This document shows positions 1-19,764 of a DNA stretch of 64,000 bases, piece by piece (the stretch's first letter is position 1; the number at the start of each line of letters is the position of its first letter). The stretch is from positions 62,001 through 126,000 of the forward strand of contig WRIV01000005.1 of the NCBI GenBank assembly GCA_009782555.1. Direction: 5' to 3'. The stretch comes from Treponema sp. Its GTDB lineage: Bacteria > Spirochaetota > Spirochaetia > Treponematales > Breznakiellaceae. Both the position numbers and the translations under genes were made by a program. The notes under the pieces were generated by a model. That model did not search any database, was not told where the DNA came from, and saw nothing but the letters and a program-made list of their open reading frames with translations.

Positions 1-272
1 ATATCTTCGGAACGCAGAGCAAAATATTTTTGCTGATCCACTTTCAAGTCCTGCGTACTTCCTGTTATGTCGTCATAAGTAATTGGTACACCCTTTTCGT
101 AAGTCCTGACACTAACCGGATCGACCGAGGGTATTTTGACAACATTTCCGAATTTCAGATCGCCTTCATAGTCGCGGTTTAGAAGGGAAGCCCAAACAGA
201 GACTTTTTCCAAGTTCCGCAAAATTGACGCGCTCCAAACAGTCGGTATAAAAACTTCTACACTATCAGCCAT
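1..272 (-). CDS. Phage major capsid (coat) protein, P22 gp5-like, N-terminal part
   Basis: The reading frame starts at an ATG at 272 behind the Shine-Dalgarno sequence GAGAGGAG and stays open to the window edge, so about 90 N-terminal residues are visible. The protein begins MADSVEVFIPTVWSASILRN and continues with a NRDYEGDL stretch and a VDQQKY stretch. From memory of the family, this is the usual opening of P22-type coat proteins in siphoviruses and podoviruses: a short arm, then a segment entering the HK97-fold core. Coat subunits build the procapsid shell on a scaffold. The gene lies 10 bp downstream of a scaffold-like gene, the normal order in phage head modules. The remainder lies outside the window, so intactness is unknown. 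Confidence 0.72.
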   Translation of the reverse strand, partial: MADSVEVFIPTVWSASILRNLEKVSVWASLLNRDYEGDLKFGNVVKIPSVDPVSVRTYEKGVPITYDDITGSTQDLKVDQQKYFALRSED

Positions 273-282
273 AATTCTCCTC

Positions 283-882
283 TCATGTTTTTTTTGCAAG
301 TTGCTGTTGACGCGCTGCCGTGAATTCGGCGTCCGACATTCCGGCAAGCTGCCGACCGTCCATATTATTCAATACGGGTAATCTTCGTGTTGATACATTT
401 GAAGAGCCGGGCGCGCCGCCTCCGGTGTTGTTGTTTCTCATAAATTGTTTTGCGCCTTCAGTTTTCGACCAAACGTCAAAAACAATAGCTTGCATATCTG
501 CCTCAGTTTCATTCCCGTCCTTATCCTTATACTTGCCAACCGCTTTTCTGCTATCACCGTTAGCGACAACATTGAAACCGTAAGTTTCTTTCAGCGTTTT
601 GCAAACCATAGGAATATAGTCGGTAAAAACTGTGGTATTCGATAAAAGACGGTTTAATTCATCATCTATCAAAAACTTTGATAGTGCCGCCTTTTCCGCC
701 GATAATTCGTTTTCTGTTTGACTGAAACGCTGTTCCAGTTCTGAAAGTTTCGCGCCGCTAACTTTAATTTCAGAAAGCAAATCATCCCTATTTTTCAACA
801 GGGCAGACTTGAATTCATCGCCCCATTTTTTACCATCATCGGTATTGATCCATTCGTTCAATTCGCTGATTTCAATAGCCAT
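283..882 (-). CDS. Phage scaffold-like protein
   Basis: This encodes 199 residues from an ATG preceded by AAAGGAG. Residues about 25-75 are rich in Lys, Glu, Leu and Ser and look like a coiled coil (SELEQRFSQTENELSAEKAA). The middle is less regular (GKYKDKDGNETEAD), and the tail is Gly/Ser/Arg-rich, ending in a basic AARQQQLAKKT. A helical, charged protein of about 200 residues directly before a coat protein gene is the normal position and shape of a capsid scaffold, which is removed or degraded after shell assembly. No catalytic motif is visible, so it is probably not a protease. The assignment rests mainly on position and composition; a head decoration protein is an alternative. Confidence 0.6.
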   Translation of the reverse strand: MAIEISELNEWINTDDGKKWGDEFKSALLKNRDDLLSEIKVSGAKLSELEQRFSQTENELSAEKAALSKFLIDDELNRLLSNTTVFTDYIPMVCKTLKETYGFNVVANGDSRKAVGKYKDKDGNETEADMQAIVFDVWSKTEGAKQFMRNNNTGGGAPGSSNVSTRRLPVLNNMDGRQLAGMSDAEFTAARQQQLAKKT

Positions 883-976: not shown

Positions 977-1399
977 TTAAAGCGACTGACACGTTGACAG
1001 CCATTCAATATCAGTCGTACCCGGCCCGAACTTGTAACACGGCGGTATAACTTCATTTATTCCCTCTGGGTACTTATTCCGGACATTCCATTTATCAAGC
1101 TCATAATAAGTATTCAAAATAAAATTGCCGTCCTTTGTTTCTACATGGATAATGTCGCATAACTCTATTGTGTATTTCCGGAGAGCTTTTTTCAGTGTTT
1201 CCATGCCTTCTTCAAAAGTGTCAAAATATCCACTGTCAAAAGTCATACTAAGTCCGCTTACTCTGCCGTGTACCCGATAAGAGCCGCGCCCTGGAGGGAA
1301 CGTGTGCGGATCATGTTCGTGCAATGAGCCAAAATAACTGTCCGCCTTTTCTTTTGGTTCAAGCTTTTTCAAGCGTGTTTTAATGCTTCCTATGTTCAT
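977..1399 (-). CDS. Hypothetical phage-associated protein, 140 residues
   Basis: I do not recognise this protein. It starts at an ATG that overlaps the stop of the upstream 78-residue gene (ATGA type), with GGAGG about 10 bp before it. The N-terminus is basic (KTRLKKLEPKEK). A middle part carries GRGSYRVHGRVSG, then FDTFEEGMETLKKALRKYT, which could be an amphipathic helix, and there is a late Cys at PPCYKFG. No signal peptide or membrane segment is seen. Translational coupling and shared strand place it in the same transcript as the scaffold and coat genes. A role in head assembly or DNA entry is possible but unsupported. Confidence 0.6.
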   Translation of the reverse strand: MNIGSIKTRLKKLEPKEKADSYFGSLHEHDPHTFPPGRGSYRVHGRVSGLSMTFDSGYFDTFEEGMETLKKALRKYTIELCDIIHVETKDGNFILNTYYELDKWNVRNKYPEGINEVIPPCYKFGPGTTDIEWLSTCQSL

Positions 1400-1632
1400 T
1401 TTGCCATTGCCTCCAATGCTACAATTCTTTCCTCAAGCTCGCACTCTTTGAGGTGCTTGTCCAAGGATAAAAGGATATTGAGACCATAAAGTAGATCACG
1501 GTAAACAGTCGCATTGATAGCGTCTGTAAAGCGAAGCCGGATAAGTCGGCAGAGGGTTTGTCTTACGCTCTTTGTCGTTTTAAGTGCTAGTCTTTGAGGG
1601 TATGCAAATTCTTTTTTTGTCGTATCGGTCAT
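1396..1632 (-). CDS. Small hypothetical phage-associated protein, 78 residues
   Basis: This short, mostly helical basic protein starts at an ATG at 1632 with AAAGGAG 9 bp upstream. It has a basic N-terminal half (KEFAYPQRLALKTTKSVRQTLCRLIRLRF) and an acidic C-terminal helix (ECELEERIVALEAMAK). It overlaps the next gene by 4 bp. It is the first gene of the leftward phage transcript, nearest the presumed attachment site. Small basic proteins at such positions are often regulators or excisionases, but no helix-turn-helix is clear. The function is unknown. Confidence 0.5.
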   Translation of the reverse strand: MTDTTKKEFAYPQRLALKTTKSVRQTLCRLIRLRFTDAINATVYRDLLYGLNILLSLDKHLKECELEERIVALEAMAK

Positions 1633-1897: not shown

Positions 1898-1944
1898 ATG
1901 CCCTTTTAAGGCGGTGGTCGGAGGTTCGAATCCTGCACGGCTCA
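1898..1944 (+). tRNA. 3' fragment of a tRNA-Lys(UUU) gene; probable attachment-site remnant
   Basis: The stretch reads as an anticodon arm with loop CTTTTAA (anticodon TTT, Lys), a 5-base variable region, a T-arm GGAGG-TTCGAAT-CCTGC and a 3' acceptor strand ACGGCTC plus discriminator A. The 3' part closely resembles the known E. coli tRNA-Lys end (GGTTCGAATCCTGCACG). No 5' acceptor strand GAGCCGT and no D-arm exist upstream, and the T-stem has one mismatch (GGAGG against CCTGC). It therefore cannot fold as a working tRNA. Such 3' fragments are left where a tRNA gene has served as an integration site. No CCA is encoded. Confidence 0.65.
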
Positions 1945-1970: not shown

Positions 1971-2231
1971 ATGAGCGTACGAGCGACAGAAAGACTGATA
2001 GGCGATGTGGTAATTGCTTCGGGAGTGCCGAACAGCGCAAAAATGGTTGTCCAATCGGTGAATGAAGAATCAAAACAAGTTTACACAATTTGGTTTTCCG
2101 ATGATCACAGTGCACAGACCGGAGTGTTTCCCTCCAGCGCCATCGATCGGGTAGATTCAAAACAAGCTGCCGCCAAAAAGACTGCGATAAAACCAAAAGC
2201 GACGGCAAAGAAGGCAGTTCGCAGGCGATAA
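1971..2231 (+). CDS. Small protein with a basic Lys/Ala-rich tail, 86 residues
   Basis: I choose the ATG at 1971 because AAGGAG lies 6 bp before it; an upstream in-frame ATG would fall inside the tRNA remnant. Residues 1-60 look like a small beta-rich domain (VVIASGVPNSAKMVVQSVNE, then VYTIWFSDDHSAQTGVFPSSAIDR). The tail from about residue 62 is a histone-H1-like run of Lys, Ala and Arg (KPKATAKKAVRRR). That composition suggests nucleic-acid binding. I do not recognise the family. It sits at the first chromosomal position after the presumed attachment site, so it may be a host gene or cargo. Confidence 0.65.
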   Translation: MSVRATERLIGDVVIASGVPNSAKMVVQSVNEESKQVYTIWFSDDHSAQTGVFPSSAIDRVDSKQAAAKKTAIKPKATAKKAVRRR

Positions 2232-2392: not shown

Positions 2393-3526
2393 ATGGGGGA
2401 AGGCATAAAAAACGGAATCTGCGTTGCTTTTGCCGGAGGCGGTACGGGGGGGCACATCTATCCCGGTCTGGCCGTGGCCTCCGCCCTTAAACAGGCGATT
2501 CCCTGCCGCATCTTCTGGATCGGTTCAGAAAAAAAACTGGATAGATCCATTGTAGAAGATGGGGGGATTGATTTTTTTTCTATCCCCGCAGGAAAACTCC
2601 GGAGAAATTTTTCTTTCCGCAACTTCAGTGATTTTTTTAAAGTTATTGCCGGTTTTTTTGCCGCCCGAAAAATTTTAAGGCGGGAAAAACCGGCGTTGCT
2701 TTTTTCCAAGGGGGGCTTTGTCAGCGTTCCTCCCTGCGCCGCCGCTTCTTCTTTGGGGATTCCCGTCTTTACCCATGAATCGGATTACAGTCCCGGCCTG
2801 GCTACCCGGATAAATGCCCGCTTTGCCGAAAAGAGCGGAGGAAAGATCATCACCGCCTATCCGGAAACGGCGGAACGGTTTTCCCTAAAAATAAAAGAAA
2901 AAGTTGTCGTCCTGGGCAATCCCGTGCGCTCTGTTTTTCGGACCGCCGATCCAGCAAAGGGGAGGGCTTTTCTGGGGGTGGAAAAAACTGACCGGATACT
3001 CCTTGTGCTGGGAGGGAGTCAGGGAGCAAAAGAATTAAACGAACTGGTAGCCGCATCTCTGGAAGCATTGACACAAACCTTTGTGGTAGTTCACCAGCAC
3101 GGAACAGATTGGGGGCCGCCGTCGAATCAAAAAAGTGCTTCCCCCCGGTACAAATCCTATCCTTACATCAAAGAAGAACTTCCCCATGTATTGGCTGCTG
3201 CGGAACTGGTTCTTGCCAGAAGCGGCGCCGGTACGATATGGGAATGTGCCGCGGCGGGAAAACCCATGATACTGCTTCCCCTGGCCGGCACCGGCACCAG
3301 GGGAGATCAGCTGGAAAATGCCCGGTTTTTTGAAACGGCCGGCGCAGCGGCGGTACTGCTCCCGGGTAAACGGGAAGCAGCCGATCTGCGGGGGATCTTA
3401 CAGATGCTTTCGGCAGATAAATTGGAAGCTATGGCCAGCGCTTCCAGACAGATCGGAAATAATGACGGATCCGCAAAAATCATTGATCTCTTGATCAATA
3501 CTCTGCGGCAACGGACGGGAGGCTAA
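2393..3526 (+). CDS. murG: UDP-N-acetylglucosamine transferase MurG
   Basis: MurG adds GlcNAc to undecaprenyl-PP-MurNAc-pentapeptide (lipid I to lipid II) on the inner face of the cytoplasmic membrane. The 377-residue protein has the family's N-terminal glycine loop AGGGTGGHIYPG at about residues 15-26, a second glycine-rich loop LGGSQGAKELN near 205, and the donor-binding segment SGAGTIWECAAAGKP followed by GDQLENA near 305. The length fits the family (about 355-380). No clear Shine-Dalgarno precedes the ATG at 2393. It heads a tight cluster with cvpA (1-bp gap), a clamp-loader gene and a two-component system. Confidence 0.95.
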   Translation: MGEGIKNGICVAFAGGGTGGHIYPGLAVASALKQAIPCRIFWIGSEKKLDRSIVEDGGIDFFSIPAGKLRRNFSFRNFSDFFKVIAGFFAARKILRREKPALLFSKGGFVSVPPCAAASSLGIPVFTHESDYSPGLATRINARFAEKSGGKIITAYPETAERFSLKIKEKVVVLGNPVRSVFRTADPAKGRAFLGVEKTDRILLVLGGSQGAKELNELVAASLEALTQTFVVVHQHGTDWGPPSNQKSASPRYKSYPYIKEELPHVLAAAELVLARSGAGTIWECAAAGKPMILLPLAGTGTRGDQLENARFFETAGAAAVLLPGKREAADLRGILQMLSADKLEAMASASRQIGNNDGSAKIIDLLINTLRQRTGG

Positions 3527-9039: not shown

Positions 9040-9066
9040 AATTATGAAAAATACATCAAAAAGGGC

Positions 9067-9095
9067 TTGCACTGTTTATATGGTTTTGGTATACT
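9067..9095 (+). promoter_or_regulatory. Promoter of the V-ATPase operon
   Basis: TTGCAC at 9067-9072 and TATACT at 9090-9095 are separated by exactly 17 bp. Transcription would start near 9102, leaving a leader of about 30 bases with AAAGAGGGAT before the ATG at 9133. This is the best promoter-like match at an operon start in the window. Confidence 0.7.
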
Positions 9096-9132
9096 CTCGA
9101 AATATGCGTATTTTGATCACAAAGAGGGATCT

Positions 9133-9747
9133 ATGGACATTCAACTGCAAGAACTTATCGATAAGATAAAAAAAGAAGGTATTGAGTCCGCTCAAGCTGG
9201 GGCGTCCAAACTCAAGGCCGATGCGGATGCGGAAGCAAAGAAGATAATCGAGGATGCAAAGCGAGAAGCTCAAAACATCATAGATCAAGGCAAAGCCGAT
9301 GCAAAAAGGAGCGAAAAAGCCGGTATTGCCGCCGTAGAACAGGCTTCCCGGAACCTTGTCCTCGCTTTCAAAGGGGAAATTCAGGGGCTTTTGGATAAAC
9401 TATGCGCCGAAGCAGTGTCCTCTTCCTTTTCCACAGATGTGATCAAGGGAATTTTGCCCGATCTGGTCAAAAACTGGGCGGTAAAAAACACCGATTCTCT
9501 TTCTGTAGTGCTTTCAGAGGGCGATTTAAGGAAACTTGACGATGCTTTTAAGACCAGCCTTTCTTCTGCCCTTAAAGGGGGAGTGGAGTTACGGGCGGGA
9601 AAAAACCTGGGAGGTGGTTTCCGAATAGCCGAAAAAGATGGTTCGGCCTTCTACGATTTTTCCGCCGAAGCGGTGGCAAACTTGCTTTCTGCCTATCTAA
9701 ACCCTAAATTGGCGGAAACCCTGAAAAGCGCCGTAAAGGGGAATTAG
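9133..9747 (+). CDS. atpE: V-type ATPase subunit E (peripheral stalk)
   Basis: Subunit E, usually paired with G, forms the peripheral stalk that holds the A3B3 head still against the rotor. The first 110 residues are a long Ala/Lys/Glu-rich coiled coil (KLKADADAEAKKIIEDAKRE), followed by a mixed globular C-terminus (GVELRAGKNLGGGFRIAEKD), as expected. I choose the ATG at 9133 (204 residues) because it has AGAGGG before it; the longer frame begins inside the promoter. It is the first gene of the operon and is followed after 2 bp by the DUF2764 gene. Confidence 0.9.
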   Translation: MDIQLQELIDKIKKEGIESAQAGASKLKADADAEAKKIIEDAKREAQNIIDQGKADAKRSEKAGIAAVEQASRNLVLAFKGEIQGLLDKLCAEAVSSSFSTDVIKGILPDLVKNWAVKNTDSLSVVLSEGDLRKLDDAFKTSLSSALKGGVELRAGKNLGGGFRIAEKDGSAFYDFSAEAVANLLSAYLNPKLAETLKSAVKGN

Positions 9748-9749
9748 GT

Positions 9750-10310
9750 TTGCAAAACCGTAACTACTACTATTTTGCTGCAACGCTGACCCCAATCAGT
9801 TACGGCGATAAACCGCCTATAGCATCCGAAGATTTCAGAAAACTCTGTCATAGTCTTTTGCACCCGGACGATGCAGCTCTTCTTAAATATTGCTGCTACG
9901 ATCCCATTCTGGCGGTGGAAACGGTTAAACCAACAGGCTCAGATTTTATTGATCTACTTATGCTAAGGGAACGGGTACTGATCCTGAACCTGGCCTTTGT
10001 CCGGGCCGCTAAACTAAAGCGGCAATCACCGGAAGACCCGCCCCAGGATGTATCCCATGCCGAAGCGCTGGGCAAGGCCGCTTTTGAGATGGATGATCCC
10101 CTGGAAGCGGCGGTTTACATAGACGAAGGCCGCTGGGGAGCACTCGATGACATGGTGGGCCTAAACCTCTTTGGAGTGAACACCATTTTTGCCTACCTTT
10201 TAAAACTCCAGCTACTGGAGCGGCGGCAGCTTTTTGATGCCGAAATTGGCTCAGGCAACTATCGAGATCTTTACGATTCCATATTGAATGAATACAATGC
10301 CAAGGTTTAA
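9750..10310 (+). CDS. V-ATPase operon protein, DUF2764 family
   Basis: This is a 186-residue protein starting with TTG, 2 bp after atpE. It opens NRNYYYFAATLTPISYGDKP, matching the start I associate with DUF2764 proteins. These occupy the same slot, between E and A, in the V-ATPase operons of Borrelia and Chlamydia. It has no membrane segment or signal peptide and is mostly helical. The operon has no gene for a normal subunit C, which bridges rotor and membrane ring, so this protein may fill that role; this is inference from position. The length fits the family. Confidence 0.75.
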   Translation: MQNRNYYYFAATLTPISYGDKPPIASEDFRKLCHSLLHPDDAALLKYCCYDPILAVETVKPTGSDFIDLLMLRERVLILNLAFVRAAKLKRQSPEDPPQDVSHAEALGKAAFEMDDPLEAAVYIDEGRWGALDDMVGLNLFGVNTIFAYLLKLQLLERRQLFDAEIGSGNYRDLYDSILNEYNAKV

Positions 10311-10322
10311 AGAGGATAGATA

Positions 10323-12086
10323 ATGAAAGGAACCAAGGGAAAAGTAGCCGCTGTAAACGGTAACATGGTAGCCGTTGATTTTAACGGTCCTGTAATGATG
10401 AATGAAGTGGCGTATATCGAAACCGAAGGAAAAAAACTAAAAAGCGAGGTTATCCGCATTAAGGGGAATACCTGCAGCCTTCAGGTCTTTGAAATGACCA
10501 AAGGGATCGTCATTGGAGACAATGTCGAATTTTCCGGAGATATGCTTGCCGTAGAATTGGGGCCTGGACTCCTTACGCAGATATACGACGGCCTCCAGAA
10601 CCCCCTTCCGCAGCTGGCGGAACAGTGCGGTTTTTTTCTGGAAAGAGGAGTGTATTTGAAACCCCTTCCTACGGAAAAAGAATGGGCCTTTACCCCGGCG
10701 GTCAAACCGGGAGATAAAGTTGTCAGGGCGGACGCCCTTGGCACCGTACCCGAAGGTGTTTTTACCCATCGTATTATGGTGCCCTTTAATATGTATAAAG
10801 AATATACGGTAAAATCCGTAAAGCCCGCGGGGAATTATAAGATCCACGACACTGTGGCGGTATTGGCTGACGAAAAGGGAGAGGAAACCAACGTTTGCCT
10901 TTCTTTCTATTGGCCGGTCAAACGGGCCATCAGCTGCTACGAAGAACGATTCAGACCCGATGAGCCCCTGGTTACCCAGATCCGGCTTATTGACACCTTT
11001 TTCCCCGTAGCCCGGGGCGGTACCTTCTGCGTACCCGGGCCCTTCGGCGCTGGAAAAACCGTGCTCCAGCACCAGATGAGCCAGCATGCTTCTGTTGATA
11101 TTGTAATAGTCGCCGCCTGCGGCGAACGGGCCGGCGAGGTGGTGGAAGTGCTTAAAGAATTCCCCGAACTCATCGACCCAAAGACCGGTAAATCCCTGAT
11201 GGAAAGGACCATCATCATATGTAATACATCGTCTATGCCCGTCGCTGCCCGGGAAGCTTCCCTCTATACAGCGGTTACCATGGCTGAATATTACCGTCAG
11301 ATGGGATTGAACATACTTCTCTTGGCAGATTCAACCAGCCGCTGGGCCCAGGCGCTTCGGGAAATGTCCGGCCGTCTAGAGGAAATCCCCGGCGAAGAAG
11401 CCTTCCCCGCGTACTTGGAATCGAATATTGCAGGTTTTTACGAACGAGCGGGCCTTGTACGGCTTAAAGACGGCGCTATGGGGTCGGTAACCATAGGCGG
11501 CACGGTAAGCCCCGCCGGCGGCAATTTTGAAGAACCCGTAACACAGGCGACACTCAAGGTAGTAGGTGCATTCCACGGCCTTTCCCGGGAAAGATCCGAT
11601 GCCCGTAAATTTCCCGCTATTCATCCCCTTGATTCCTGGTCCAAATACCGCGGAATTATTTCAGATGAAAAAGTCGGCTATGCCCGGCGGATACTTTCCC
11701 GTGGCACCGAGGTAGAACAGATGATGAAGGTTGTCGGCGAAGAAGGAACCAGTCAGGATGACTTTATCATCTACCTTAAGGGAGAATTCCTAGATGCGGT
11801 TTACTTCCAGCAAAACTCCTTTGATGAAGTGGATCAGGCTGCAAGTCCGGATCGACAGCAATATGTCTTTAAACATATACTCCGGATTCTGGGAAGCAGC
11901 CTTAGCTTTTCCGGCAAGGAAGATGCCCGGACTTGGTTTAACGGACTTCGACAGAAGTTTATTGACTATAATTATTCGCCCTGGCAAAGCGTGGGGTTCA
12001 AAAAAATCGAAGGGGAACTCTTGGGACTAATCAAAGACAAGGCTGGCGGCATGGATCCAGCGGCGGAAAAATTAATAGCCGGTTAG
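10323..12086 (+). CDS. atpA: V-type ATPase catalytic subunit A
   Basis: Subunit A is the nucleotide-hydrolysing subunit of the A3B3 head. The protein is 587 residues, standard for the family. It shows the N-terminal barrel ([20 protein letters not shown]), the A-specific bulge region, and Walker A GPFGAGKT at residues 239-246 with Lys245. This is followed by the GER segment [13 protein letters not shown] and the [17 protein letters not shown] signature. All key catalytic motifs look intact. The gene lies 12 bp after the DUF2764 gene. Confidence 0.97.
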
Positions 12087-12120
12087 ACGTGGCGGCAATT
12101 TTGATAGAAGGAATGAATCG

Positions 12121-13425
12121 ATGAAAAAGATTTACAGTAAAATAGAGTCGATTACCGGTAACGTTATTACCGTCCGCGCCGAGGGAGTCCGCTACGGAGA
12201 CCTGGCGAGGATCGAAACCGGTTTTGGCCCCTCTTTGGCGGAAGTAAACCGCCTCGCCGGGGACATGGTGTCCCTCCAAGTATTTGCCGGGGGCCGGGGA
12301 ATTTCCAACGGCGATACCATTGAATTCCTTGGCCACCCAATGGAAGTTTCCTTTTCGGAAAACCTTCTGGGCCGGGTCTTTACCGGCTCCGGTGATCCAA
12401 GAGATAAAGGGCCCGCCCTGGCAGAAAATTTAATCCCCATTGGCGGTCCATCGGTCAACCCAAGTCAGCGTATTATTCCCCGGCGGATGATACGGACCGG
12501 TATCCCTATGATCGATTTATTTAACACTCTCGTGGTTTCGCAGAAACTGCCGATTTTTTCCATCTCCGGTGAACCCTATAACCAACTCCTTGCCCGGATC
12601 GCTATGCAGGCCGAAGTTGATGTAATCATCCTGGGAGGCATGGGGCTGAAATTCGACGATTATCTTTATTTTAAAGATACTCTGGAACAAGGCGGTTCCC
12701 TTTCTAAAACCGTCATGTTTATCCATACTGCTTCGGATCCTACGGTGGAATGCCTTATGATCCCCGATATCAGCCTAGCGGTGGCGGAACAATTTGCCCT
12801 TAAAAACAAAGATGTACTGGTACTCCTTACCGATATGACAAGTTTTTCCGATGCAATGAAAGAAATCGCTATTTCCCAGGAACAGGTACCCAGTAACCGC
12901 GGCTACCCCGGGGATCTTTATAGCCAGCTTGCGGCGCGTTATGAAAAAGCCGTCGACTTTGAGACGGCCGGGTCGATCACCGTCCTGGGTGTAACCACCA
13001 TGCCCGGTGATGACGTAACACACCCGGTGCCGGACAACACCGGGTACATCACCGAAGGTCAATACTACCTTCGGGGCGGGCGAATTGAACCCTTTGGTTC
13101 CCTTTCCCGGCTTAAACAGCAGGTAAACGGCAAGACCCGGAAAGATCACAGGGCCCTTATGGACGGCATGATCAAGCTTTATTCAGCTTTCAAGGACACA
13201 CTGGAAAAGAAATCCATGGGTTTTAATATGAGCGCCTGGGATGGAAAACTGCTCCAGTACGGTGAACGTTTTGAAAAAGAAATGATGGACCTGTCGGTAA
13301 ATATTTCCCTGGAAAAAGCCCTGGATTTGGGCTGGGAAATCCTGGCAAGCTGTTTTAAGAGTGAAGAAACAGGACTCCGTTCCGAACTGATAAACGAATT
13401 CTGGCCCGTAAACAGGACGGCATAG
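12121..13425 (+). CDS. atpB: V-type ATPase subunit B (regulatory, non-catalytic)
   Basis: Subunit B alternates with A in the head and binds but does not efficiently hydrolyse ATP. The 434-residue protein has the beta-barrel start ([20 protein letters not shown]) and the [15 protein letters not shown] segment in place of a Walker A, as expected for B. It also has [15 protein letters not shown] and the conserved [20 protein letters not shown]. The gene is 34 bp downstream of atpA with GAAGGAATG before the ATG. Length and motifs are normal for the family. Confidence 0.97.
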
Positions 13426-13428
13426 GGG

Positions 13429-14031
13429 ATGGCAAAAGTAAAACTCACTAAAAATGAGCAGAAAAAGCAAAAAGACAGCCTCAAAATGTTTCAGCGTTAT
13501 CTGCCTACCCTGATGCTGAAAAAGCAGCAGCTTCAAGCAGAGATCCGGACTGTGGATATCCGGGTAACTGAACTGAGAAGAATTAAAGAACAAACGGAAG
13601 AAAGCTTTAAAAAATGGATCGGTGTTTTTGGGGAAAAAGGCGTTTTTACCCCCGACATACTGAGGGTAACCAAATTGCTAGCCGGGGAGGGAAATATCGC
13701 CGGTGTTCCCATTCCGATTTTTGAAGGTGCCGAATTTGAAACGGCCCAATACGATCTTGTGAAAAAACCCCTTTGGCTTGATCTGGCGGTGGATAATATG
13801 AAAAAAGCGCTCCTTCTGGATCTGGAAATGCAGTGTTTGGAAGAACAGCAGCGCCGCCTTCGAAAAGAACTCCAGACTACCAGCCAGAGGGTAAACCTCT
13901 TTGAAAAAATTAAAATCCCCGAGGCTAAGGCAAACATTAAAAAAATTGCCGTTTATCTGGGAGATCAGCAGACCGCTGCGGTGGTTCGGGGGAAAATTTC
14001 CAAGCGGGGCATGGAGAGGGCAAGTTCATGA
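13429..14031 (+). CDS. atpD: V-type ATPase subunit D (rotor shaft)
   Basis: Subunit D is the central coiled-coil shaft turned by the A3B3 head. The 200-residue protein has two long helical stretches. The N-terminal one (about 1-60) includes KVKLTKNEQKKQKDSLKMFQ and LMLKKQQLQAE; the C-terminal one (about 120-190) includes RRLRKELQTTSQRVNLFEKI. A short variable middle lies between them. The LxKxxLxxxxQxLxLLxxKR-type start of the family is recognisable. It begins 3 bp after atpB and overlaps atpI by 4 bp. Confidence 0.92.
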   Translation: MAKVKLTKNEQKKQKDSLKMFQRYLPTLMLKKQQLQAEIRTVDIRVTELRRIKEQTEESFKKWIGVFGEKGVFTPDILRVTKLLAGEGNIAGVPIPIFEGAEFETAQYDLVKKPLWLDLAVDNMKKALLLDLEMQCLEEQQRRLRKELQTTSQRVNLFEKIKIPEAKANIKKIAVYLGDQQTAAVVRGKISKRGMERASS

Positions 14032-15947
14032 TTGTACCTATGAAAAAGGTGTCCCTCCTGGTAATGGACAAAAACAAGGAAACAGCGCTTGAAAAAATCC
14101 GCGAGTTGGGGTTGATTCATCTGGAAAAGAAAACCGCCGTTTCCCCGGTGCTGACCAAACTTCTGAACAGGAGAGCCCATCTGGAGATGGCAGCGGGGGT
14201 ACTCTCCGCCTTTACCCAAAAAAAGAAAAAGAAAACTAACATTGAACCGGCAAAATACGGCGGAGATTTAGCAAACCATGTAGTAGCTCTTTCTGATCGC
14301 CGTAAAAAACTGTTGGATTATATTGTTAATCATCAAAGGGAAAAAAGTAACTTTGAAAAATGGGGGGAGTTTGAACCGGCGGACTTTGCCTATCTTTCCG
14401 ATAACGGAGTAAAAGCATACCTCTATGATGTTTCCCTTGTTTCCTATGAGAAGAATGCGGGGGACGTGCCGGTAATTGTTCTTTCTTCTGATAAAAAAAA
14501 TAATTCTGTCCGTCTTCTAGCTTTTGATACCATCCCCAATGAAAATTCCATCCCAATACCGGAAAGGTCTCTTTCCGTGGTCAACGAAAGAAACCAAATA
14601 CGAAGAGCCGAAATGGCTGAAATTGAAACAGAACTGACCTCGCTTTCTTCTTTGCAAAACATACTTGAGACCGAAAAAAAATCGCTTTTGGCGGATATAG
14701 AATTTGAAACCGCCCGGGCCGGCATGGAGTTGATCGATGAAAATGCTGAAACGCCGGAGCTGGCCGTTTCCTGGATTTCAGGCTATGCGCCCGCTTCAGA
14801 TGTTGGAATATTAAAACGGGCGGCCAGCGAAAACGGCTGGGCATTTTGCGCCGGTGATCCGGCAGAGGATGATGAAGAAGTTCCCACCAAGCTGAAAAAC
14901 AACAAACTTGTAACCCTCCTCAATCCATTAACGGATTTTCTTGAACTGTCTCCTGGCTACCGGGAAATTGATGTTTCCGGCTGGTTTCTGCTTTTCTTTA
15001 CCCTGTTCTTCGGCATGATCTTTGGAGATGCCGCTTATGGAACAATCCTTTTCCTCATCTCCCTTGTCTGTATATCCAGAACCGCAAAAAAACGGGTTCC
15101 CTTGATTTTTAAATTCCTCTTTTTAATGAGCGTTTCCAACATTTTGTGGGGAGTGCTTACCTGTGCATGGTTTGGCTTTGATACATCTTTGGTACCGCAG
15201 GTACTGCAGAACATCAGTCTTCCCCTCCTCGTCAATGTATCTGCCAAACCCGGATGGTTTGAAACCTATATATCAAACAATTACTGGATTCAATACGGAC
15301 TGGTGCCTTCCCATGCAACCGTTGATGCGATGGGGAAGTCAGTTACCAGAAATCTGATGATTTTCTGCTTTTCCATCGCTTTGGCACAGCTCGGCATAGC
15401 CCACCTTAAAGGAATAGCTGCCAATATTAAATCGCCAAAATTTCTGGCGGAGCTCGGGCAGCTGGGCATGGTTGTGGGGATGTACTTTGTTGTTCTTTCC
15501 CTGGTGGCATTCAATACCGGATTCGGCGGTGTTGAGTTATGGCAGTATGGCTGTTTGGGAGGAGGGTTTGTCTTAAGTTTTATCTTTGGAAATTATGAAG
15601 GAAGCGTGCTCAAATCCGTCATCACAAGCTGTGTAAATTTTCTTACCAATGTACTTGGTATAGCCAATGTGTTTTCCGACATTATGTCCTATATCAGACT
15701 TTGGGCGGTAGGGTTGGCAGGAGCTTCTATTGCCAGTACGGTGGATGGGTTTGCCAGTCCCCTGATAACTCATATGCTTTTCTTTATCCTTGGCATAGCA
15801 CTTTTTGTGTTTGGCCATGGTTTTAATATGGTTCTTAACGTTCTGTCGGTTCTGGTCCACGGGGTCCGGCTTAATACTTTGGAGTTTTCGTCTCACTTGG
15901 GACTTGGCTGGTCTGGTTTTGCATATAAACCGTTTGCTAAACGGTAG
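14028..15947 (+). CDS. atpI: V-type ATPase subunit I (membrane stator, a-like)
   Basis: Subunit I provides the ion half-channels next to the proteolipid ring. The 639-residue protein has a soluble N-terminal half (about 1-320) with helical stalk-contact segments, then about seven hydrophobic segments from near residue 325. These include LFFTLFFGMIFGDAAYGTI and MSYIRLWAVGLAGASIAS. The latter holds the conserved Arg that acts on the ring carboxylate in this family. It overlaps atpD by 4 bp. An inner ATG four codons later (ATGAAAAAGG) is an alternative start. Confidence 0.94.
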   Translation: MIVPMKKVSLLVMDKNKETALEKIRELGLIHLEKKTAVSPVLTKLLNRRAHLEMAAGVLSAFTQKKKKKTNIEPAKYGGDLANHVVALSDRRKKLLDYIVNHQREKSNFEKWGEFEPADFAYLSDNGVKAYLYDVSLVSYEKNAGDVPVIVLSSDKKNNSVRLLAFDTIPNENSIPIPERSLSVVNERNQIRRAEMAEIETELTSLSSLQNILETEKKSLLADIEFETARAGMELIDENAETPELAVSWISGYAPASDVGILKRAASENGWAFCAGDPAEDDEEVPTKLKNNKLVTLLNPLTDFLELSPGYREIDVSGWFLLFFTLFFGMIFGDAAYGTILFLISLVCISRTAKKRVPLIFKFLFLMSVSNILWGVLTCAWFGFDTSLVPQVLQNISLPLLVNVSAKPGWFETYISNNYWIQYGLVPSHATVDAMGKSVTRNLMIFCFSIALAQLGIAHLKGIAANIKSPKFLAELGQLGMVVGMYFVVLSLVAFNTGFGGVELWQYGCLGGGFVLSFIFGNYEGSVLKSVITSCVNFLTNVLGIANVFSDIMSYIRLWAVGLAGASIASTVDGFASPLITHMLFFILGIALFVFGHGFNMVLNVLSVLVHGVRLNTLEFSSHLGLGWSGFAYKPFAKR

Positions 15948-15983
15948 AATGATAACGCGATTTTAACGGAATAGGAGTTTTTT

Positions 15984-16424
15984 ATGGATTCAAACCTTTT
16001 GGGATTGATTGGAGCAGGAATTGTGATGGGGATTGCAGCCATCGGTTCTGCGATAGGTATTGGCATTGCCGGATCTGCCGTTATCGGCGCCTGGAAACGC
16101 TGTTATAAGGCCAATAAACCCGCTCCCATGACCATGCTTACCTTTGCAGGTGCCCCACTGACACAGACCTTTTACGGATTTATCCTGATGCAGCAGATGT
16201 TGAATTCGTCGGGAACGGCGAGTCCTGGTCAGCTCCTTGGCATGGGAATCGGTTCGGGGCTAGGTATTTGTTTTTCCGCCATTGCTCAAGGCAAAGCGGG
16301 AGCCGCCGGCGCCGATGCTCTTAGCGACACCGGCAAGGGTTTTGCCAACTTTATAGCCGTTGTTGGTATCTGCGAAACGGTAGCCCTTTTTGCCATGGTT
16401 CTTTCCATGACAACCCTTGGCTGA
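15984..16424 (+). CDS. atpK: V-type ATPase proteolipid subunit K (c-ring)
   Basis: This 146-residue membrane protein has four hydrophobic segments, a tandem duplication of the two-helix c-subunit typical of V-type rings. The ring carboxylate is Glu131 (GICETVALFAMV). Thr60-Gln61 (PLTQTFYGF) and Gln102 (IAQGKAGAAG) match in type and spacing the Na+-coordinating Thr64-Gln65, Gln110 and Glu139 of Enterococcus hirae NtpK. Gln-to-Glu spacing is 29 residues in both. This points to a sodium-coupled ring. The first hairpin (AIGIGIAGSAVIGAW) has no carboxylate, as in NtpK. It is the last gene of the operon, 36 bp after atpI with AATAGGAG before the ATG. Confidence 0.93.
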   Translation: MDSNLLGLIGAGIVMGIAAIGSAIGIGIAGSAVIGAWKRCYKANKPAPMTMLTFAGAPLTQTFYGFILMQQMLNSSGTASPGQLLGMGIGSGLGICFSAIAQGKAGAAGADALSDTGKGFANFIAVVGICETVALFAMVLSMTTLG

Positions 16425-16461
16425 TAAAACGTCTCCGGCAGCCCGGCAACAGTAGCCGCTG

Positions 16462-16478
16462 CAGCAACTTTGTTGTTG
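16462..16478 (+). promoter_or_regulatory. Hairpin directly upstream of the ispG start
   Basis: CAGCAAC and GTTGTTG form a 7-bp stem (one G-T pair) closed by a TTT loop, ending 2 bp before the presumed ATG of ispG. No U-run follows, so it is not an intrinsic terminator. It occupies the place where a Shine-Dalgarno sequence would be, and none is visible there. Confidence 0.3.
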
Positions 16479-16480
16479 GC

Positions 16481-17623
16481 ATGCATTCCCGTATACTCCA
16501 GGTAGGTGGCTTTAACCATGTTAAAGCTTCCTTTATTGGAGGCGGTCATCCTGTGGTTATTCAAACCATGTGGAAAGACCGTCTTTCTTTTAAAAACCTT
16601 CAAAATGACACCGAAGGCTTTTGCAGCGGCGGCAATGCCTTGGTTCACCGCATAGAAGTGTTGGAAAGAATAGGGTGCGGTCTTCTCCGTTTTGCCGTCC
16701 CTTCTCTGGAAGAGGCGGAAATATTGGGAGAGCTGGCAGGCCGGATCACTCTGCCCCTCTGCGCTGATATTCATTTTGATTATAAAATAGCCCTGCGCTG
16801 CCTTGATTTTCCCATTGCCAAATTAAGGATCAATCCCGGAAATATCGGAAACCGTCATAAAGTGGAAGCGGTGGTTTCCAAGGCGGCGTCCCGGAATATT
16901 CCCATCCGCATCGGGGTAAACGCAGGGAGCCTTCCCGGATCTCTGCGGGTAAAAGTGGAACAGGGCCTGGACCGGGCGGAAGCCTTGGTCATGGCCGCCA
17001 TGGAAGAATTAACGATATTTGAAGAACTGGGATTTTCCAATACGGCAGTGTCGATGAAAATATCAGGCATTGCCGACACCGTTAAGGTAAACAGACTTTT
17101 CCGAAACCGAAGCGATGTTCCTCTCCATATTGGCGTAACCGAAGCGGGGCCTTTGGTGGCGGGAACCGTGAAAAATGCTTCTGCCCTGCTGCCTCTTCTT
17201 TTGGAAGGAATAGGGGATACCCTGCGGGTATCCCTTTCTGACAGTGAGGAAAATGAGATCATCGCCGGCAGGGAAATTCTTAACGCTGCCCGGGAAATGA
17301 CAGATACCGATCCTGCCGGGGGACGTTTCGGCGGCGGAGTGATCCTTGTGTCCTGTCCCCGCTGCGGGAGAAACGATTTTGATACCATTGCCTTTACCGA
17401 TCGATGGAAAACCCGCCTTTACAGCCTGAAAAAAAACTGTACCATCGCTGTCATGGGCTGCGCCGTAAACGGCCCGGAAGAAGCAAAACATGCGGATATG
17501 GGAATTACCGGCGCGGGCAACAGTATAATAATTTTCCGAAAGGGAAAAATAATAAAAACATTTCAAACAAAAAAAAATGAGGAAATAGACAAAGCTTTTA
17601 ATGCGGAATTACAAAAACTTTGA
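16481..17623 (+). CDS. ispG: 4-hydroxy-3-methylbut-2-enyl diphosphate synthase IspG
   Basis: IspG converts methylerythritol cyclodiphosphate to HMBPP in the non-mevalonate isoprenoid pathway, using a [4Fe-4S] cluster. The protein is 380 residues. The N-terminal TIM-barrel part includes ADIHFDYKIALR, KLRINPGNIGNRHK and IRIGVNAGSL. The C-terminal part has the cluster ligands in CPRCGRNDF and later MGCAVNGPEEAKHADMGI. All family landmarks are present. The opening (LQVGGFNHVKASFIGGGHPVVIQTM) is more divergent than usual. The start codon lacks a visible ribosome-binding site. The gene follows atpK after 56 bp and may be read through from it. Confidence 0.93.
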   Translation: MHSRILQVGGFNHVKASFIGGGHPVVIQTMWKDRLSFKNLQNDTEGFCSGGNALVHRIEVLERIGCGLLRFAVPSLEEAEILGELAGRITLPLCADIHFDYKIALRCLDFPIAKLRINPGNIGNRHKVEAVVSKAASRNIPIRIGVNAGSLPGSLRVKVEQGLDRAEALVMAAMEELTIFEELGFSNTAVSMKISGIADTVKVNRLFRNRSDVPLHIGVTEAGPLVAGTVKNASALLPLLLEGIGDTLRVSLSDSEENEIIAGREILNAAREMTDTDPAGGRFGGGVILVSCPRCGRNDFDTIAFTDRWKTRLYSLKKNCTIAVMGCAVNGPEEAKHADMGITGAGNSIIIFRKGKIIKTFQTKKNEEIDKAFNAELQKL

Positions 17624-17649
17624 CTTGTCGAACTGAGCAGGTCATATAA

Positions 17650-18558
17650 TTAACTGAACAAGTCCAGTTGTTTGGCGGCATATCCGCGTTTATAATCAAT
17701 GATAATATCTTTCATATTACAGCGCAGACCAAGACGGCTGCATTCTTCGCTAAAAATGGAAAATAGGGTTTTTGCTTTTGGCGATGAACAGCTATAGCGT
17801 TCGCCGAACCGTTTTATATACTTTTCTTTTATGCCGGGAAAAAGAACATCCAGTTTTTTATAATAATATTCCCGGTTTCCTGCCCGCAGCGTCATTCCAA
17901 TGGCAGGATATACAAAACGGGCTCCGTTTTCTTTTGCTTTCCTTACAATACTAATGATGTTTTCTTCCGTATCTTCGATAAATGGCAGTATGGGCATCAT
18001 TAAAACACCGGCGTAAATATTGCTGCCGCATAGTGTTTTAAGTGCCTCAAAGCGTTCACTGGAAGGGGGCGCCCGGGGTTCCACCATGGCAGACAATTTG
18101 TCGTCCCCCGTGGTTATAGTTATTTTGATGATCACAGGAGAATGCGCCTGTATATCTTTTAATATAGCCAGGTCCCTTGCAATCAATGTACTTTTTGTAG
18201 CAACGGCCACTCCGAACCGGTACGCGTTTAGCAGTTCAAGGGCGTTTCTTGTCAGTTTTAATTCTTTTTCATAAGGATTGTAGGGATCACTCATGGAACC
18301 GGTGGCTACGATGCCCCGGCGGCGTTTTTTTAAAATATCGTCCCGGATAATGTGCAGCGCCCCCTGCTTTACCCGGATTGAATTAAAATTTTTTATGCGG
18401 TAACAAAGACTCCGGCTGTCACAGTAAATACACCCATGGGAACATCCCCGGTATATATTCATATTATAATCGGCGCCAAACCAAGAATGGTTTTTTGTTT
18501 TTGTTACAATGGTTTTAGCGGGAATGTATTCAATATTCACTATTTGGAATTGTATCAA
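17650..18558 (-). CDS. SPL-family radical SAM protein
   Basis: This protein has the radical SAM cluster motif CSHGCIYC (Cys39, Cys43, Cys46 when counted from the TTG at 18558). The neighbouring text NMNIYRGC and the later GIVATGSMSDPYNPYEKELK are typical of spore-photoproduct-lyase-like proteins often annotated as DNA repair photolyase. Length is 302 residues. An inner GTG at 18540 (start of NIEYIPAKTI) is an equally likely start; neither has a clear Shine-Dalgarno. Spirochaetes do not make spores, so the substrate is unknown. It lies alone on the minus strand, convergent with ispG. Confidence 0.82.
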   Translation of the reverse strand: MIQFQIVNIEYIPAKTIVTKTKNHSWFGADYNMNIYRGCSHGCIYCDSRSLCYRIKNFNSIRVKQGALHIIRDDILKKRRRGIVATGSMSDPYNPYEKELKLTRNALELLNAYRFGVAVATKSTLIARDLAILKDIQAHSPVIIKITITTGDDKLSAMVEPRAPPSSERFEALKTLCGSNIYAGVLMMPILPFIEDTEENIISIVRKAKENGARFVYPAIGMTLRAGNREYYYKKLDVLFPGIKEKYIKRFGERYSCSSPKAKTLFSIFSEECSRLGLRCNMKDIIIDYKRGYAAKQLDLFS

Positions 18559-18580
18559 AAAATACGCCTATATCAAGGGC

Positions 18581-18608
18581 TTGCAAAAAATGGCCGATAA
18601 TCTATAAA
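18581..18608 (+). promoter_or_regulatory. Possible promoter close to the TPR gene start
   Basis: TTGCAA at 18581-18586 and TATAAA at 18603-18608 are 16 bp apart. The -10 box ends only 7 bp before the ATG at 18616, so a transcript from it would be nearly leaderless. It also lies just upstream of the divergent radical SAM gene. Confidence 0.35.
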
Positions 18609-18615
18609 TAAAGGT

Positions 18616-19764
18616 ATGTACAAAAAATGCTTTTGCCGCAGTAATATTTGCTATCCCTTTGTCCTCTTGTGCTGTCTTATCCTTGTTCCCGCCGCCGCCC
18701 AGCAGCGAAGAATCGATCCCTGGTGGATTACACTGGAAGAAGGAAAGCGGCATTTCCGGAACGGCGCTTACGGTAATGCGCTGCTTTGTTTTGAAAATGC
18801 CCGGGAAAACAGAAAAAACTACTATGCCAAAATGGAACGGGACTTGATTACAGTTCTTTCGATCCACGAAGTGCGAAGATTGGGAGACGATCTGAGTTTC
18901 CTGGAAATTTATATAGAAAGGGAATTTCGTACCGATGCGGCAGATGCCCTTAAAGAATTGTACTACCGGGTGCCAAAAGGAAATCTTCATAATTCTTCCA
19001 AAGCGGCTCTTTCCGAGATTGGCCGCCTTAAAAACTATCCCGAAGCAGAGTACTGGATAGGAGAGGTATACCGCATGGAAGGCGAGTTCAGCATCGCTCT
19101 TAATCAATACCAAAAGGCCTACAATGAACGATCCCTGATGGAAAATCCTGAATTTGGAAGAGAAATTCTCTATAAGATGGCGGATTTACGGAAACTGCGC
19201 CGTGAATATACCGAAATGGAAAAAATCCTTCTGGATATCCTCAGATCCGATGAACTTTGGAGCCGTGAATCTTTTAACCGGTCCAATCTTCAGAAAAGCC
19301 TGGAAACCAACGGTATTAACCGTTTTTTGCTGCTCTTCCGTCACCATGAGCCTTCTGTGGAAAAAGCTCATCGGACCTTGGGTTTTTATTATTACAATAA
19401 TGGACGGCACAATCTGGCAGCGGATCATCTGCTTTTTGCATTCCTTATTCAGAATTCGATGGTCATCGATGCCGTACTGCAATCCCAGTACAACTATACC
19501 TTTACGGGCCTCCCTGTTCTTCTTAGCGACATTGCCAAGCGGCGGGACCTAATTGCTTATCTGGAAGAAACAGAATACTACAAAACCCTGTATTACCTGG
19601 CCAATTCTCTCTACGGAGTGGGACGTCGTTCTCCAGCCCGGGAAATCTGGATATTCCTTAGGGATTATGCGGGCGGAGAGTGGCGGGGAAGGGCGGCGGC
19701 TCAACTCCGCAATCCCCAGATGGACCAGGCCACTGAAACTATTGGCAGATCCGGCGCACCATAA
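18616..19764 (+). CDS. Exported TPR-like protein
   Basis: This 382-residue protein has an N-terminal hydrophobic segment (CYPFVLLCCLILVPAAA) that looks like a signal peptide with cleavage after AAA-Q. The rest is helical with TPR-like helix pairs, for example ALLCFENARENRKNYYAKM, EYWIGEVYRMEGEFSIALNQYQKAY and TLGFYYYNNGRHNLAADHLL. TPR arrays usually mediate protein-protein contacts. It is the first of three plus-strand genes, with a UPRT-like protein and a second TPR lipoprotein behind it (12-bp gap, then a 4-bp overlap). This suggests periplasmic scaffolding, but the partner is unknown. Confidence 0.72.
   Translation: MYKKCFCRSNICYPFVLLCCLILVPAAAQQRRIDPWWITLEEGKRHFRNGAYGNALLCFENARENRKNYYAKMERDLITVLSIHEVRRLGDDLSFLEIYIEREFRTDAADALKELYYRVPKGNLHNSSKAALSEIGRLKNYPEAEYWIGEVYRMEGEFSIALNQYQKAYNERSLMENPEFGREILYKMADLRKLRREYTEMEKILLDILRSDELWSRESFNRSNLQKSLETNGINRFLLLFRHHEPSVEKAHRTLGFYYYNNGRHNLAADHLLFAFLIQNSMVIDAVLQSQYNYTFTGLPVLLSDIAKRRDLIAYLEETEYYKTLYYLANSLYGVGRRSPAREIWIFLRDYAGGEWRGRAAAQLRNPQMDQATETIGRSGAP

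Follow-up and report, generated by a model that had tools for sequence, protein, structure and literature searches.

Genome comparison confirmed at the sequence level that positions 1900-1944 of the window, the whole 64,000-nucleotide stretch of the Treponema sp. genome that was analysed (G000:C5:62001-126000), are the right-hand attachment site, attR, of a 7,583-bp element integrated in a spirochaete tRNA-Lys(UUU) gene. With a probability of roughly two in three, this element is a phage satellite that makes its own shell and would use the portal, terminase and tail of a helper.

The tRNA-Lys fragment and its intact partner

The first-pass annotation had described a tRNA-Lys(UUU) 3' remnant without a 5' half at 1898-1944, and had predicted that it was the right-hand attachment site of an element whose intact tRNA-Lys lay farther left, outside the window. 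The remnant was found (GCCCTTTTAAGGCGGTGGTCGGAGGTTCGAATCCTGCACGGCTCA), two bases shorter than claimed: bases 1898-1899 fell outside the match and the block truly starts at 1900. No intact tRNA was detected within the window by ARAGORN, which placed an intact 73-nt tRNA-Lys(TTT) to the left of it on the same contig, at G000:C5:56289-56361 (L011:9289-9361; an L011 coordinate minus 15000 gives the window coordinate). In alignment, the fragment was identical to nt 29-73 of this gene at 45 of 45 positions. A search of the whole of G000 returned a second copy of the 45-base block at C5:56317-56361 (E = 3.4e-17) and no third copy with up to three mismatches allowed (control, 0), while an Rfam scan of the remnant gave chance-level matches and no tRNA. 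The intact gene is about 7.6 kb left of the fragment. The check proposed earlier, a genome search for an intact tRNA-Lys with an integrase nearby, found both on the same contig, with the integrase ORF (L011:9480-10772) beginning 118 bp past the tRNA. The right end of the element and its host flank are as follows.

1900..1944, plus strand: attR core, the displaced 3' part of tRNA-Lys(UUU) from the anticodon-stem 5' strand to the discriminator base (45/45 identity and empty sites)
1971..2231, plus strand: host gene, 86 aa, directly after tRNA-Lys in relatives with an empty site (orthologues in G003, G004 and G002)
2393..3526, plus strand: host murG, which flanks the integration locus on the right (Glyco_transf_28 E = 7e-38; synteny)

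The site was empty in two genomes of the same genus, G003 and G004, where the gene order was lipA, tRNA-Lys, the orthologue of the 1971-2231 gene, and murG; in G002, tRNA-Lys was likewise followed by this orthologue and then murG. In G001 an identical tRNA-Lys was adjoined by an integrase 62% identical to that of the element, and therefore insertion at this tRNA-Lys gene has happened more than once. The GC content of the element was 40.8%, compared with 48.2% in the host flanks. The paired intact tRNA, the adjoining integrase and the empty sites in two same-genus genomes thus identified 1900-1944 as attR, and the ends of the element showed that it was integrated by its own tyrosine integrase. 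All that is expected of a tRNA-integrated genomic island was found, namely an intact tRNA with an identical 3' fragment, a tyrosine integrase beside the tRNA, and unoccupied relatives. That the fragment instead resembles a tRNA by chance, or is a decayed tRNA pseudogene, is extremely improbable: no support for this was found, and the 45/45 identity, the integrase position, the empty sites and the synteny are all against it. The empty sites, together with the paired tRNA, ruled out a chance origin.

One part of the initial account did not survive. The T-stem mismatch (GGAGG/CCTGC) had been taken as a product of recombination within the T-loop. This T-stem, with its G:G mismatch, was shared by the fragment, its intact counterpart and the unoccupied tRNA-Lys genes of G003 and G004; because it is common to the intact gene and the same-genus unoccupied genes, it says nothing about recombination, and its reading as a recombination scar was ruled out. 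A T-loop crossover is also disfavoured by the duplicated block, which begins in the anticodon stem. The crossover was probably in the anticodon loop, at a point finer than sequence can resolve: the 45 shared bases here correspond to tRNA nt 29-73 and so reach its 3' end, and the identity blocks of six further islands with integrases of this wide family (G003 Met, G059 Met, G077 Glu, G023 Tyr, G014 Ala, and G534 Asp) begin at nt 31-33. Anticodon-centred sites are one of two common classes of tRNA sites (the anticodon-loop 'A' sites of Islander, PMC4383910; also PMC8371274). On insertion, the element supplied a replacement tRNA 3' end (attL, the intact gene), and the original one came to lie at the opposite end of the element (attR). 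This is no different from Islander-type tRNA islands (PMC4383910), which also have a regenerated intact tRNA beside the integrase and a displaced 3' fragment at the other end; it is the cargo that is unusual.

A second integrase in the same genome, 44% identical to the first, was encoded beside a tRNA-Tyr at G000:C6:503-1789 (L085) and was cut by the contig end; it probably belongs to another island.

Gene content of the element

From the tRNA rightwards, the plus strand of the element encodes the integrase, a 54-aa ORF, a 236-aa ORF, an excisionase-like HTH protein (TIGR01764 E = 5e-8), a 121-aa ORF, a 71-aa ORF, a RepA-like AAA_25 helicase (E = 2.8e-26, with partial matches to phage RepA proteins in 89 phage records), and a 99-aa ORF. 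These are followed by a minus-strand operon in the order orf78, orf140, scaffold, and major capsid protein (MCP).

L011:9480-10772, plus strand: integrase (phrog_1 E = 1e-44; Pfam Phage_integrase E = 1.5e-17)
1396..1632, minus strand: orf78, first gene of the capsid operon (G534 homologue in the same position at L101:14940-15308, BLASTP pair E = 8e-11)
977..1399, minus strand: orf140, second gene of the capsid operon (from the ORF list)
283..882, minus strand: head scaffolding protein, 199 aa (phrog_206 E = 1.2e-4; pair with the G534 scaffold E = 4e-18)
1..272, minus strand, continuing left of the window (L011:14418-15272): MCP (phrog_267, Phage_capsid_4 and solved-MCP profile match)

The expected catalytic motifs of the integrase (R, HxxR, H, and Y) were seen by eye. 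The MCP matched the phrog_267 major head protein (E = 7.1e-50) and Pfam Phage_capsid_4 (E = 6.8e-9), and a profile built from it and three relatives matched solved MCPs (8e16 at E = 5e-46); the assignment rests on these profiles, the AlphaFold model of the MCP being poor (pLDDT 41). Orf78 was predicted to be a two-helix protein (AF2 pLDDT 81) and had no PHROG match and no significant Pfam match. For orf140, no family match was found in PHROGs, Pfam or further profile searches.

The head genes that had been noticed immediately left of the remnant are the MCP and scaffold genes, and they lie inside the element. The word 'phage' that was applied to the element does not suit it: these two are the only recognisable virion genes in 7.6 kb, and known tailed phages go down only to about 11.5 kb (PMC11144348). 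Comparison of the element's ORFs with PHROGs and Pfam revealed no recognisable gene for a terminase (including TerS), portal, protease, connector, tail or lysis protein, so the element is not recognisable as a complete tailed prophage, which would carry terminase, portal, tail and lysis genes. It does have what is expected of a phage satellite, in that it is integrative, carries replication genes and has an incomplete virion gene set. Judging from the functions of the families, the integrase and the excisionase-like protein would excise the element, the RepA-like helicase would replicate it, and the MCP and scaffold, which share their operon with two small ORFs, would form the shell. The portal, terminase and tail would come from a co-infecting or induced helper phage.

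A different use for the capsid operon would be interference or defence, in which the capsid and scaffold poison or redirect the capsid assembly of a helper or competitor and the tRNA island moves by other means. The lack of recognisable packaging genes would fit such a role, and scaffold-type proteins with which satellites redirect the capsids of their helpers are known (P4 Sid and SaPI scaffolds, PMC10690885). Nevertheless, this is very unlikely, as a complete MCP with its scaffold exceeds what is needed, the redirectors described in PMC10690885 are scaffold-type proteins rather than MCPs, and no conjugation genes that might explain movement were recognised among the ORFs (PHROGs, Pfam).

The large terminase subunit (TerL, phrog_2) was searched for as a sign of a helper. 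None was found in G000, which is 85% complete, or in G534, while G003 gave clear matches. No resident helper of G000 is therefore known, and any helper would come from outside or be encoded in the missing 15% of the assembly.

Similar elements in two other spirochaetes

In a search of several hundred spirochaete genomes the MCP was found in only three, G000, G289 and G534. A profile scan of genome contigs with the MCP alignment returned the G289 record only, a MAG named 'uncultured Spirochaetes bacterium'. In both of the other genomes the gene was within a small integrated element.

L101 (G534:C1:342000-361900) 12559-19138: G534 element, 6,533 bp, at tRNA-Asp (intact tRNA at one end, 47-bp tRNA repeat at the other)
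L047 (G289:C4:57000-76900) 9054-12815: G289 element, 3,744 bp, at a dif-like site (two copies of the 18-bp AATGTATATTCTGTCGAC)

The G534 element has the layout of the window element, with an intact tRNA, integrase, DnaD/O-like initiator, orf122, scaffold, and MCP, and three of its proteins paired with those of G000 (orf122/orf78 E = 8e-11, scaffold E = 4e-18, and MCP E = 2e-49). The G289 element encodes an HUH Rep (PF23343 E = 1.6e-11), the MCP, a scaffold (phrog_206, 7e-7) and two small ORFs, one of which, in the place of orf78, weakly resembles it (22% in alignment). No integrase was recognised within its 3,744 bp. With one mismatch or none, the AATGTATATTCTGTCGAC motif was present in 21 of 31 genomes in the set of relatives, as a single copy in most of them (reversed control, 0). 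This distribution suggests that the motif may be the chromosome-dimer site dif, with host XerCD integrating the element. The G289 element is remarkably short for one that is integrated and encodes a capsid protein.

In the MCP tree, G000 and G289 grouped together (97/86) with G534 nearby, all on long branches, and identity between the MCPs of the elements was low, at about 32%. A single origin of the three elements is neither shown nor excluded, the tree being compatible with either answer. The order of an orf78-like gene, scaffold and capsid recurs in other elements.

Outside these elements, the MCP family belongs to tailed phages. It was found in 366 named phage records, with a range of 36-274 kb among the matches listed, and was amid terminase, portal or tail genes in the two plasmid-collection contexts that were inspected (plasmid or prophage). 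Fifty-one IMG/VR contigs also encoded it, and a recognisable portal was present in 19 of the 39 that had at least 3.5 kb upstream; most of the remaining contigs had large ORFs without assigned identity in the portal's place. Thus, among the contexts inspected, the three spirochaete elements were the only ones in which a capsid gene was positively observed without a portal gene, and the IMG/VR contigs with unassigned ORFs could hide others. No close relatives of the integrase, the helicase, the G534 MCP or the G289 Rep were found in IMG/VR, where the G289 MCP matched over 28 residues only. RepA-like helicases were also present in the short fecal contigs MT836902, MT837414 and MT836267, whose ORFs were read by eye.

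The occurrence of the family in full tailed phages (phage records, plasmid or prophage contexts, and IMG/VR contigs with a portal) is the basis of the main rival explanation, that an ordinary tailed prophage at tRNA-Lys underwent deletion of its terminase, portal, tail and lysis genes, so that the capsid and scaffold are what remains of it. Deletion remnants are common, yet decay of this kind is unlikely here. The element has intact, compactly arranged ORFs and a perfect att sequence at either end. Furthermore, the scaffold, MCP and small upstream ORFs, with no other recognisable virion gene, also occur in two elements with different sites and replication genes; because the three elements differ in their replication and integration modules, independent decay to the same gene set is improbable.

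The best reading is instead a sparse family of satellites that supply their own shell and borrow the packaging and tail proteins of a helper, a dependence that we infer. A more specific proposal, for and against which the balance is about even, is that these elements form a distinct spirochaete satellite class of 3.7-7.6 kb. Its conserved core would be the capsid operon only (small upstream ORFs, scaffold, and MCP), alongside which the replication module (RepA-like helicase, DnaD/O-like initiator, or HUH Rep) and the mode of integration (a tRNA integrase, or host XerCD at dif) would be exchangeable, and its members would build their own small shell on the helper's portal and use the helper's terminase and tail. 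If this were true, shells of one lineage would be assembled on the portal of another phage.

Comparison with known satellites and neighbouring islands

The terminase small subunit is the classic satellite tool for redirecting packaging. It was encoded in sister islands of the same integrase family in G059 (phrog_51 E = 6e-27) and G077 (phrog_57 E = 2e-13), so the satellite lifestyle was probably already at home in this lineage.

Several neighbouring islands were observed in addition. The G059 and G077 islands, which share the element's integrase family and carry the terminase small subunits, are a 10.1-kb island at tRNA-Met (L082) and an 11.5-kb island at tRNA-Glu (L083), respectively; each has a second recombinase-like ORF near its far end, and they are PICI-like satellites in relatives of treponemes. 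A 14-kb tRNA-Met island in G003 (L081, G003:C31, 3908-17985) also has another recombinase-like ORF, and one ORF of 724 aa was judged by eye to resemble a tape-measure protein.

Each of the described satellite types that was compared shares some features with the element. Like PICIs and P4-like satellites, which use TerS or a capsid-redirecting scaffold, it is a small integrated element with integrase, xis-like and replication genes, but it has no recognisable TerS, and so is not a PICI by that test, and it encodes a complete MCP, not just a protein that redirects capsid size. The likeness to PICIs includes the TerS of its integrase family's sister islands. The cf-PICIs also have an integrase and their own MCP, with tails presumably borrowed; however, they encode a protease, portal, connectors, both terminase subunits and an HNH protein as well (PMC10690885), none of which was recognised in the element, which has only 7.6 kb. 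The Streptomyces satellites MulchRoom and MiniFlayer have an MCP and scaffold and form small capsids. Unlike the element, with its RepA-like helicase and its lack of any recognisable packaging gene, they encode terminases, a portal and an adapter, and no primase (PMC10690885). PICMI are without capsid genes and are integrated next to fis (PMC10803314), unlike the element, with its MCP and its location in tRNA-Lys. Tycheposons and VEIMEs, which comprise tRNA-associated elements and encapsidated satellites, are integrase elements too; they travel in phage particles, and differ in having marine hosts. Some tycheposons are reported to carry capsid-related genes, and an unrecognised precedent for the element among the tycheposons or VEIMEs is possible.

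No description of satellites in treponemes was found in the literature searched, and in a survey of 38 Treponema prophages the elements were 12.4-75.1 kb and the word 'satellite' was absent. The attachment site itself is textbook. What is unusual is that the MCP and scaffold are the only recognisable virion genes; the known shell-making satellites bring a portal and terminase too. Such elements were found in three spirochaetes, each with its own replication module, and use two routes of integration between them. If these elements move in particles, they would set a lower limit for a shell-making satellite and would offer a direct test of a capsid built on a foreign portal.
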